Shown here piece by piece: positions 576 to 3,975 of a stretch of 57,262 nucleotides of DNA. The first letter of the stretch is position 1. Each line of letters starts with the position of its first letter. The stretch is taken from NCBI GenBank assembly GCA_030262895.1, contig JAJSZW010000007.1, positions 1 through 57,262 of the forward strand, in the 5' to 3' direction. The notes below the pieces were generated by a model, which saw only the letters and a list, made by a program, of their open reading frames with translations, was not told where the DNA came from and did no database searches. Both the position numbers and the translations under genes were made by a program. This DNA is from Deltaproteobacteria bacterium. GTDB lineage: Bacteria; Desulfobacterota; Desulfobacteria; Desulfobacterales; ETH-SRB1.

Positions 576-2231
576 TTGGACAAGTATAGGAGTTATACAC
601 TATTTTTGATTTTTTTTCCGCCGCGTAGCGGCTTCGTCCAACAATTCAAGGAAGGAGAAAACCTTCTACCGGGAACCGGCGGCGAAGCATGGCGAGAGCT
701 TTTCGACGCTACTCGCAAGTTTGCACTCGAATCCCACCCCGACAAGGCATTCCCTAATCTAGGTGTGGATGCACCCTGCCCACTGTGCCAGCAACCCCTC
801 GCCGAGGGTGCCGAGCGCTTACTGCGTTTCGAAGCCTTCATCCAACAGGAAGCGGAGAAGACCGTTCAGGCCCGTCGTGCCGCACTTGCCGCGGAGTACA
901 AGCCATTCGCTGCACAAGCCTTAACTCTGAACTTGAATGATGTGACCTACAGCGAAATCGAGTCGCTGGACTCGCAGCTTGCAGTCGACACACGTGCTTT
1001 CGAACAGGCATTGACTGCTCGTCAAGAGTCGATCAAAACTGCGGTGATATCGCATAAGTGGGACGGCACTGACCAAGCTTTGGCTACTACCCCAGCGGCA
1101 CGACTTCAGGCTCTGGCAGACAAGCTGAACGCTGAAGCTGAAACTTTGGAGAAGGCGTCCGACAAAAAAGAGCGTGCCGCGCTGCAGAAACAGTTCAATG
1201 AACTAGATGCACGTGTTCGGCTGAATCAGGTTAAGGAAGCCGTCCTCACGGCAGTATCTCGGCTCAGTCACCAGGGCAAGCTCAAGAACTGCTTGCCAGC
1301 AGTAAGAACCAACGCCATCTCATTAAAATCGTCTGAGTTGGCAGAACAGGTAGTTTCAAAGGAACTTGCCGAAGCACTCAACCGAGAGTTTAAGGCACTT
1401 GGTGTTAGCTCACTTCGCGTTTCTTTACAGAGTCGTGCGTCAAAGGGTAAAGCCTTGCACAAGCTGAAGCTTGAACTGCCGCAAAACCGTAGACCCGTCG
1501 ACATCCTGAGCGAGGGTGAGCAAAGCGCCATCGCAATCGGTTCCTTCCTCGCTGAAGTTGGTCTCAATGGTGGAAAGGGCGGTATCATTTTCGATGACCC
1601 GGTTTCGTCGCTTGACCACCGACGACGTGAACGAGTAGCAAAGCGCTTGGCAGCAGAGTCATCAGAGCGACAGGTCATCGTCTTCACCCACGACATTTAT
1701 TTTCTTTGCATCCTTGCAGAGGAAGCTGAGTCGGCTGACGTTCCAATTACAACCCAGAGCTTGATCCGGCGCACCGAAGGTTTCGGCGTATCCGATCCCG
1801 AGTTGCCGTTTGAGGGCAAGAACACTTCCAAGCGAATTGGTGCGCTGAAAGTCCAGCAACAGCTCATTGCAAAGCTATACAGAAATGGCGACGAACAGGA
1901 GCACCAGCGTCAGACTGTCGATGCTTATTTTCGGTTGCGCATGTCCTGGGAGCGTGCCGTTGAAGAGGTTCTGTTGCGAAAGGTTGTTTTACGTTTCCGC
2001 AAAGGCATAGAAACACAACGCTTGGCCGAGGTCACTGTTGATGATGGTGGCTACTCCCAAGTCTATGCAGGCATGACGAAGTGTTCTAATTATGCTCACG
2101 ATAAAGCAGTGATGGGTGGGGTAGCCGTTCCTGAACCCGATGAGTTGCTTGAAGACATAATGGCATTGGAACAGTGGCGCACTAAGCTGGAAAAGAAAAG
2201 TAAAGAAATCGTAAAGAGGCGAAAGGGATGA
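576..2231 (+). pseudogene. 5'-truncated AAA/SMC-like ATPase (AAA_13 / RloC-like), C-terminal part
   Basis: CPLCQQPL zinc-hook-like CXXC, LSEGEQSAIAIGSFL signature motif, GGIIFDDPVSSLDHRRR Walker B/D-loop, VIVFTHD H-loop; no Walker A; first ~20 codons look like junction sequence next to the integrase-bearing element. Confidence 0.75.
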
Positions 2232-2262: not shown

Positions 2263-2347
2263 AGCTAACAAGGCAAATGCACTCGGGCGCCAAAAATCGT
2301 TGCTCGTTCCTCGCTCTGCTTTTTGCCGCCGGTTTGTGGGTTATGTC
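2263..2347 (+). other. Integron-type attC recombination site
   Basis: R'' AGCTAAC at 2263-2269, imperfect stem ggcgccaaaaa/tttttgccgcc, R' GTTATGTC from 2340. Confidence 0.75.
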
Positions 2348-2382
2348 TCTTTTATTCATGAAAACTTATTCGAGCAAGACTA

Positions 2383-3654
2383 ATGCTTAAATTCGAACCA
2401 GAAAAAATAATGGAGGATATAAAACATGCAATTTCCATTATCGAAGGTTACAATTGCGAACTGGCTGACTGGTATGAAATAACTATCCCTGACTTCAATC
2501 CTTCCGAATATGATGACGAAATTATTACATACGATACAGAAATAAGTTTATGGCTTCCTGAATCAGATGATTCTCCAACTGTTACTATAAATGAACTCAT
2601 TGGATTATCGTGCGAGCTTGAATCTGCAAAGTTAGAAAACAACACAAGATATATTTCAAATAAAAGAATATTGCAGCTCGTTGAGCCTGTTGGGAACACT
2701 CAGGTGGCAATACTTGGTATAGAAGGATCTTGGCCGAATTGCCGTTTATTTGAACAAACTATTAAAATCAAAGGAACAAAAATCAAAGTTGGAATTGTGA
2801 ATGGTTTTACACCATTTGCTTTTCTTTTAGCAAAAAATGGGGACTATGGGGACTTTTGGCCAGTTTTTCATGAAGAAGACTATTTTGTCGAGATAGAATT
2901 TGATGGAAAACAAGATCCAGATAACATAAAGACTATTTTGGAATCGTACTTATTTGAGTTGAACTCAAGTTCTGGATTGATTTTTAGACCCCATGTGCGC
3001 CCAATATATGATGATGCATTTGATTATGAGGACCAACAAAATAAAGCACAACGACTTAATGAAAAATGTAGATTTAGACCTTTACTTTCAGGGAAGGGCC
3101 TTCCTGGAGTGTGCTGTTTATTTAATAGGGCTATGTCAATAGAGGATGTTGAACTTCGCCTATTTTCTTTAGTCAAGACGTTAGAGTTCATTACACCAAC
3201 GGTATTGAGAAAAAGATCTAACGAGGAAATAAGACAGAGACTTTTGAGTCCGGACGCATTAGATCCAGATGCAGAATTTATTAAATCATTAATCGACCTG
3301 TTAGAATCACACCGTGAAAGCAGAAAGGATTCAGTTGCGCTTAAACTTACAATCATTGAATGCTGTGACCCTAACCCCATTGCTAAAGTATCTCCAGAAA
3401 TATTAAAAAAGACATGCAATTTGGTCAATATGACGGGCAAAGCGGAGAACAAAGCGGCATTGGAGGAGTTGGCAAATTGCCTATCTGCTACAAGAAATCA
3501 CATAGCACATGCAAAAAGTAATTTTGTCCCAACAGGTCGAGAGTGTCCGCAGGAGCAATTGCCGGCTCTGGTTGAATGTGTTCGTATTGCAACGATTCAA
3601 GCGATCCGATGGTTTTCAACCTGCTCGGAGGCACTACGAATAGTCGGCAATTGA
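2383..3654 (+). CDS. Cassette-borne hypothetical protein with C-terminal HEPN-like motif (RNHIAH)
   Basis: 423-aa ORF filling the cassette between two attC sites; LSATRNHIAHAKSNF fits RNxxxH. Confidence 0.7.
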   Translation: MLKFEPEKIMEDIKHAISIIEGYNCELADWYEITIPDFNPSEYDDEIITYDTEISLWLPESDDSPTVTINELIGLSCELESAKLENNTRYISNKRILQLVEPVGNTQVAILGIEGSWPNCRLFEQTIKIKGTKIKVGIVNGFTPFAFLLAKNGDYGDFWPVFHEEDYFVEIEFDGKQDPDNIKTILESYLFELNSSSGLIFRPHVRPIYDDAFDYEDQQNKAQRLNEKCRFRPLLSGKGLPGVCCLFNRAMSIEDVELRLFSLVKTLEFITPTVLRKRSNEEIRQRLLSPDALDPDAEFIKSLIDLLESHRESRKDSVALKLTIIECCDPNPIAKVSPEILKKTCNLVNMTGKAENKAALEELANCLSATRNHIAHAKSNFVPTGRECPQEQLPALVECVRIATIQAIRWFSTCSEALRIVGN

Positions 3655-3660
3655 AAGAAA

Positions 3661-3732
3661 GACATAACATGCGCATTCACAACCGACTCGCAGGGCTGGC
3701 GCCCAGCTCACTTGTGATGCGCGGCGTTAACA
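3661..3732 (+). other. Integron-type attC recombination site
   Basis: R'' GACATAAC (3661-3668) is the exact complement of cassette-start R' GTTATGTC (2340-2347); stem gcgcattcacaa / ttgtgatgcgc with one extrahelical base; R' GTTAACA at 3726-3732. Confidence 0.85.
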
Positions 3733-3750
3733 AAAAAAATAGAGCATAAA

Positions 3751-3975
3751 ATGACAGTCAGCCTTTTTTATATTTTCTTTTTACTGATACTTTTTTCTAA
3801 ATTTTTATCAATGTATGAAAACAGTATAAAGATAGAAAATCGTTCTTCGATAAAGAAGACATTTGACAAGAAAAGTTTAAAAATTTTCAAGTATACAAGA
3901 ATGCGGGACATCCATAAACAAGTAAATAAATCATGCTCAAAAGATAGTTATTTACTTATTTATGGATGTCCCTGA
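3751..3975 (+). CDS. Small hypothetical membrane protein of a third (truncated) cassette; 3' part lies in a hairpin repeat
   Basis: ORF begins right after attC; N-terminal hydrophobic stretch LFYIFFLLILFSKFL. Confidence 0.35.
   Translation: MTVSLFYIFFLLILFSKFLSMYENSIKIENRSSIKKTFDKKSLKIFKYTRMRDIHKQVNKSCSKDSYLLIYGCP
3905..3972. repeat. Near-perfect inverted repeat (25-bp arms, 18-nt loop), REP/MITE-like
   Basis: gggacatccataaacaagtaaataa ... ttatttacttatttatggatgtccc, one mismatch. Confidence 0.85.

Follow-up and report, generated by a model that had tools for sequence, protein, structure and literature searches.

The window analysed here is the whole 57,262-nucleotide stretch of contig JAJSZW010000007.1 from a Deltaproteobacteria bacterium, and it comes from a draft assembly of 257 contigs that is 85% complete. 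Near its start lies what a sequence-only reading had described as an intact integron cassette with a HEPN-motif protein as possible phage-defence cargo. The locus raises the question of what such a cassette offers its host, i.e., whether the protein is a HEPN ribonuclease, whether the gene travels as a cassette, and whether its role is defence, addiction or something else.

Structure of the gene cassette

The cassette is made up of the following parts:

2340..2347 (+): R' core GTTATGTC, the cassette start, read from the sequence
2341..3726 (+): integron gene cassette, crossover G^TT to G^TT (exact R'/R'' complement, attC fold)
2383..3654 (+): gene for the 423-aa HEPN protein, ATG start, in agreement with the N-terminus of the Desulfovibrio homologue
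3661..3732 (+): the cassette's own attC (R'' GACATAAC at 3661-3668, L'' at 3671-3682, L' at 3712-3722, R' GTTAACA at 3726-3732)

The boundaries first proposed, an R' at 2340 and its exact complement at 3661, were correctly placed: the R'' GACATAAC is the exact reverse complement of the R' GTTATGTC. Within the attC, L'' GCGCATTCACAA (3671-3682) pairs with L' TTGTGATGCGC (3712-3722), and the one extra T in L'' forms an extrahelical base, as is typical of attC sites. The bottom strand of an attC is the one used by the integron integrase, and its folding, proposed earlier as a check, bears the site out. Folded as single-stranded DNA, the bottom strand has a z of -3.62 (0 of 200 shuffles equally stable) and the top strand a z of -2.22. 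Of the window's 81 ORFs that reach 100 aa, the HEPN ORF is the only one with a GTT+5 word on its 5' side and the exact reverse complement just 3', and because the arrangement is unique among the 81, the R'/R'' pairing is not a product of chance. The same flank test applied to 342 ORFs of other loci gave 7 cases, namely three relatives of the HEPN family, two other cassettes of a Xanthomarina array, and two unrelated ORFs.

As had been read, a single 423-aa ORF (2383-3654, ATG) lies between R' and R''. It fills the cassette, with no antitoxin-sized second ORF either here or in the other cassette copies described below. The chosen start gives an N-terminus (MTLKFEPE) close to that of the Desulfovibrio homologue (MLKFEPE). 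A 15-codon ORF (2343-2390, +) runs from within the R' core to a stop that overlaps the ATG of the HEPN gene; it is possibly a leader for translation coupling of that gene.

Domains of the encoded protein

Four features of the protein bear on its function:

2383..3072 (+): N-terminal beta-rich domain, residues 1-230, candidate sensor (AlphaFold2, low to medium confidence)
3100..3618 (+): C-terminal domain assigned to HEPN, residues 240-412 (AlphaFold2 pLDDT 87 for the domain; ApeA profile match)
3175..3186 (+): K265 and E268, within the long helix that precedes the motif; counterpart of the acidic residue conserved in HEPN helix 2
3493..3510 (+): RNxxxH motif LSATRNHIAHAKSN, R371 N372 x3 H376 (TRN kept in 24/24 sequences)

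The window protein has no sequence match in Pfam, NCBIfam or the PDB, and searches of plasmids, phages and IMG/VR returned no match or matches at chance level. A match of G052 to an HsdR protein was likewise rejected as chance. The N-terminal part, unrecognised at first reading, is modelled as a beta-rich domain, and no Pfam match, including ApeA_NTD, was found for that half of the protein. The C-terminal domain modelled alone is a helical bundle (AlphaFold2; pLDDT 87, pTM 0.82) in which R371 ends the predicted helix 353-375 and H376 lies just beyond it, in the loop. The survey of the HEPN superfamily describes an Rx4-6H motif at the end of a helix and a conserved acid in the preceding helix (PMC3710099); the present family has the Rx4-6H motif, its position at the end of helix 3 in a predicted all-alpha bundle, and the helix-2 acid.

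Pfam similarities among family members (HEPN_Apea, HEPN_RiboL-PSP, HEPN_Swt1 and MauJ) all fall below the cut-offs. The gathering score of ApeA (PF18739) was missed by the best member (18.1 bits versus 24.4; best E 0.004), and MauJ (PF17419), the best Pfam similarity in 19 of 20 members, reached 27.7 bits at best versus a gathering score of 28; the window protein itself has no MauJ match. Compared with a profile of 11 ApeA proteins, the family profile aligns over the whole domain (~137 columns) with a score of 32.1, which none of 200 column-permuted controls reached (mean 14.0, sd 2.4, maximum 20.7); a control with the alignment reversed scored 17.7. Both HEPN signatures are in register in this alignment, with E268 opposite ALE of ApeA and TRNHIAH opposite TRNYLTH.

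Foldseek searches of the PDB with the full-length and domain models found no HEPN structure and nothing at E <0.001, and a search of BFVD gave no usable match. Because Foldseek found nothing significant, the assignment of the HEPN fold draws on the sequence profile together with the predicted topology, and on these a HEPN domain in the C-terminal ~170 aa is supported. The motif claimed at first reading holds up, given TRN in 24 of 24 sequences, the ApeA profile match above every control and the weak Pfam matches. The fold check proposed with it came out in part: the predicted helical bundle carries the motif at a helix end, whereas no HEPN structure was recovered.

A scattered and previously unnamed family

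No relative of the window protein was found in 397 other genomes sampled from the same phylum. A second family copy, 28% identical to the window protein, lies on contig C70 of the same assembly and supplied a search motif, HAKSN[FY]xxTGxE, with which 85,488 genomes were scanned. The scan returned 24 stretches, 23 of which encode true relatives, most of them ~390-420 aa long; the remaining match, in Thermosynechococcus (L022), was rejected as a frame of 48 aa. The relatives are nearly all from Bacteroidota, and the nearest to the window protein is that of Desulfovibrio sp. A2 (L008), at 33% identity. The family was not found in 72,556 plasmids except for a decayed, frameshifted and unannotated copy on the Photobacterium damselae plasmid pPHDP70 (L005, 619-1000). 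Judged from these searches, the family is previously unnamed, taxonomically scattered and without a Pfam or NCBIfam match.

Seven residues outside the search pattern (T370, R371, N372, K265, E268, D316 and D329) do not vary among the 20 aligned members, and the T, R and N of the motif are kept throughout the C-terminal alignment of 24 sequences. Both H376 and HAKSN..TG.E belong to the pattern, so that the invariance of its H, A, K, N, T, G and E is partly a result of selection. Conservation of the motif's T, R, N and H and of the helix-2 acid spans 20-33% identity.

Comparison with known systems shows partial likenesses. ApeA, a single-gene anti-phage protein, also combines a beta-rich N-terminal region with a C-terminal HEPN domain bearing TRNxxxH, and both families occur in restriction-modification (R-M) neighbourhoods. 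The present family differs in its shorter N-terminal domain (~230 aa versus ~300 aa) without an ApeA_NTD match, in its own HAKSN[FY]xxTGxE signature and in its weak matches to PF18739. By sequence, the nearest named defence protein is DzbB of Dazbog (PADLOC PDLC03836). Six of the 20 members match it, with a best E of 1.4e-8, along the HEPN part and a portion of the N-terminal domain, although the window protein itself reaches only E 0.0014. Assignment to Dazbog was rejected because the cassette lacks a DUF262 partner (DzbA), as do the neighbourhoods of relatives that were inspected. Integron cassettes with HEPN proteins were already described in 2013 (PMC3710099), one of the proteins being of known structure (PDB 3jrt), but no PDB chain is matched in sequence by phmmer or profile, and the window family, at 423 aa, has an extra domain. 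Phage defence carried by integron cassettes was reported in 2025 (review: PMC12409362). As represented in that review, the cassettes of Darracq 2025, Kieffer 2025 and Getz 2025 resemble the present one in being single-gene, promoter-poor and likely defence cargo, and the window protein belongs to a different family from theirs. What is new is therefore the family; cassette-borne HEPN proteins and defence cassettes were already known.

Relatives as mobile cassettes

Several relatives are also bounded by cassette flanks: GTTAGCCAC...GTGGCTAAC in L017, GTTGGCAATA...TATTGCCAAC in both L019 and L023, and TTAGCAACA...TGTTGCTAA in L018. The copy on contig C70 (L050, G000:C70, 318-1571) is near-identical to one in a Bacteroidetes MAG (L025). 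The two sequences become alike precisely at TTATATGA, the G^TT crossover, and differ upstream of it, from which it follows that the family gene moves as a cassette. Upstream of the L025 copy lies another cassette, with a HEPN_Toprim_N/OLD-TOPRIM gene. Given how close the two copies are, contig C70 may have been assigned to the wrong bin, or a recent transfer of the cassette may have occurred. The state of single-gene cassette occurs in at least three separated lineages of the family tree: the window protein, L017, and the group formed by C70, L025, L018, L019 and L023.

The integron platform of the source genome

Sequence upstream of the HEPN cassette includes a second cassette and its attC:

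664..2231 (+): truncated AAA_13 ATPase gene (PADLOC candidate family PDC-S06), the preceding cassette, with ~340 N-terminal residues missing
2263..2346 (+): preceding attC, R'' AGCTAAC ... R' GTTATGT, read from the sequence, with weak fold support

The fold of the preceding attC (z -0.93) is weaker than that of the HEPN cassette's own site. At the junction ~600-664, 5' of the truncated ATPase gene, a sequence GTCCAACAATTC resembles an attC half-site. Downstream of the HEPN cassette, 3726-3975 (+) may be the start of a next cassette, with a 74-aa ORF and behind it an apparently perfect inverted repeat, gggacatccataaa...tttatggatgtccc.

The genome has two true intI genes, on contigs C37 (466 bits) and C16 (423 bits; cut-off of the integron integrase model, 265), whose products share ~50% identity. 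Both genes thus stand apart from the contig of the window, on which the array breaks off at the contig end. The incomplete tyrosine recombinase at the edge of the contig (1-540, - strand; listed as 1-600 in a side entry) was considered as the IntI of the array and rejected, as it scores 77 bits against the cut-off of 265, is 92% identical to an element on contig C119, and is 29% identical to the C16 IntI, the real intI genes being on C16 and C37. By its sequence it is best described as a mobile-element recombinase and not an IntI.

Cassette arrays of Flavobacteriaceae

One relative, from Xanthomarina (L023), belongs to a series of four consecutive cassettes in which R' and its own R'' match at 10, 10, 9 and 10 of 10 bases. 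Flavobacterial attC-like sites, ~135 bp long, were gathered by BLAST and an nhmmer profile; by BLAST, the Xanthomarina genome has at least 34 similar sites and Winogradskyella at least 41. On Xanthomarina contig C71 (L100, C71:1-20000), a 375-aa tyrosine recombinase heads an array of at least 18 co-directional sites. Their own R'/R'' pairs match at 9-10 of 10 bases where readable, a level reached by none of 96 non-partner pairs. About 45 bp past the recombinase stop, behind an inverted repeat, stands GTTGTGGTGC, which matches the R'' of the first cassette at 9 of 10 bases. A similar hairpin and GTT follow the recombinase in Winogradskyella (L105) and Maribacter (L102/L103), and in Altibacter (L104, L106) ~20 sites form a co-directional array near a related recombinase. 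The array recombinase (~375 aa) is of the Xer/XerA type, extended at its N-terminus and lacking the IntI insertion, and no IntI above the cut-off was found in the flavobacterial array genomes.

We lean towards the view that one HEPN defence gene serves as cargo of two mechanistically different systems, i.e., IntI/attC integrons (the window, C70 and L025) and Xer-headed, integron-like arrays of Flavobacteriaceae with an attI-like site after the recombinase stop. IntegronFinder 2.0 reported In0 elements and one complete integron in Bacteroidetes proper (PMC9024848), and no paper describing the flavobacterial arrays was found in the open-access literature. The long Xer-headed arrays lie in a phylum where canonical integrons have been reported as very rare; if the two-system view is true, they would represent a separate integron lineage, expected to be missed by current integron finders.

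Defence neighbourhoods of relatives

Outside cassettes, relatives occur beside a variety of defence genes. In gut Bacteroidales, two loci (L016, L024) have an operon of helicase, Eco57I methylase, HEPN and TIR genes; a third (L014) has the same first three genes with a Fic-like_C protein in place of TIR, its methylase and HEPN genes overlapping by 4 bp, start over stop; and a fourth locus (L026) has a HEPN-TIR pair. The four-gene operons possibly represent a multi-gene defence system. Elsewhere the HEPN gene follows a SNF2/ResIII helicase and a DUF4391 gene (L009, L020) or stands beside Fic and ORF6N genes (L027) or a STAND NTPase gene (L010). No defence genes were found in the immediate neighbourhood of the nearest relative (L008, Desulfovibrio), and no constant partner or trigger gene was found across the neighbourhoods of relatives. 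The suggestion of phage-defence cargo gains support from these neighbourhoods and from the recurrent single-gene cassettes, while the role itself is still putative.

Proposed function and alternative explanations

Taken from sequence and structural models, the cassette probably carries a stand-alone HEPN endoribonuclease that acts as a one-gene abortive-infection or dormancy system. The N-terminal domain would sense infection or hold the enzyme off, HEPN domains would pair so that R371 and H376 build a composite active site, and activation would lead to cleavage of host or phage RNA, stopping growth before phage release. An IntI encoded on another contig of the genome could mobilise the cassette by excision. 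Because the ORF leaves no space in the cassette for a promoter or antitoxin, expression should depend on position in the array, and with the array cut by the contig end and the neighbouring gene truncated, the HEPN cassette may be silent.

Integrons often carry toxin-antitoxin cassettes, and the HEPN protein could instead be the toxin of such a unit, an addiction module that stabilises the array and not an anti-phage effector. The HEPN superfamily survey proposed a role in stress dormancy for integron-cassette HEPNs (PMC3710099), which would fit this explanation. A toxin-antitoxin pair is nevertheless made unlikely by the presence of one gene in the cassette, with no antitoxin-sized partner in the window or the other copies and no constant partner elsewhere; the conserved second domain of ~230 aa, unlike the small HEPNs of toxin-antitoxin systems, and the relatives in R-M/TIR operons also argue against it.

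An equally improbable alternative is that the protein is an auxiliary subunit of an R-M type defence and a passenger or orphan in cassettes. The 4-base overlap of methylase and HEPN genes and the adjacent TIR gene in Bacteroidales speak for such a subunit, as does the report of ApeA within R-M operons (PMC3710099), but the cassette copies in at least three lineages carry no R-M gene with them, suggesting that the HEPN gene functions on its own. Quite improbable is a HEPN-like domain that is non-catalytic or has some other role, as in MauJ-type proteins, to which the sub-threshold MauJ similarity of 19 of 20 relatives and the lack of HEPN structures in the Foldseek results might point, since at 20-33% identity no aligned member departs from T, R, N, H or the helix-2 acid, and a MauJ-type protein in L060 itself has TRNALMH, so that similarity to MauJ also points to HEPN.

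The stand-alone endoribonuclease accordingly remains the preferred reading, and a review gives ~10% as the share of Vibrio cholerae integron cassettes that protect against phage when expressed (PMC12409362). The putative defence family described here adds to the growing list of likely integron-cassette defence genes, with R371, H376 and E268 as candidate residues. Standing alone in cassettes and within R-M/TIR operons elsewhere, it offers a clean case for the question of a minimal one-gene HEPN defence.
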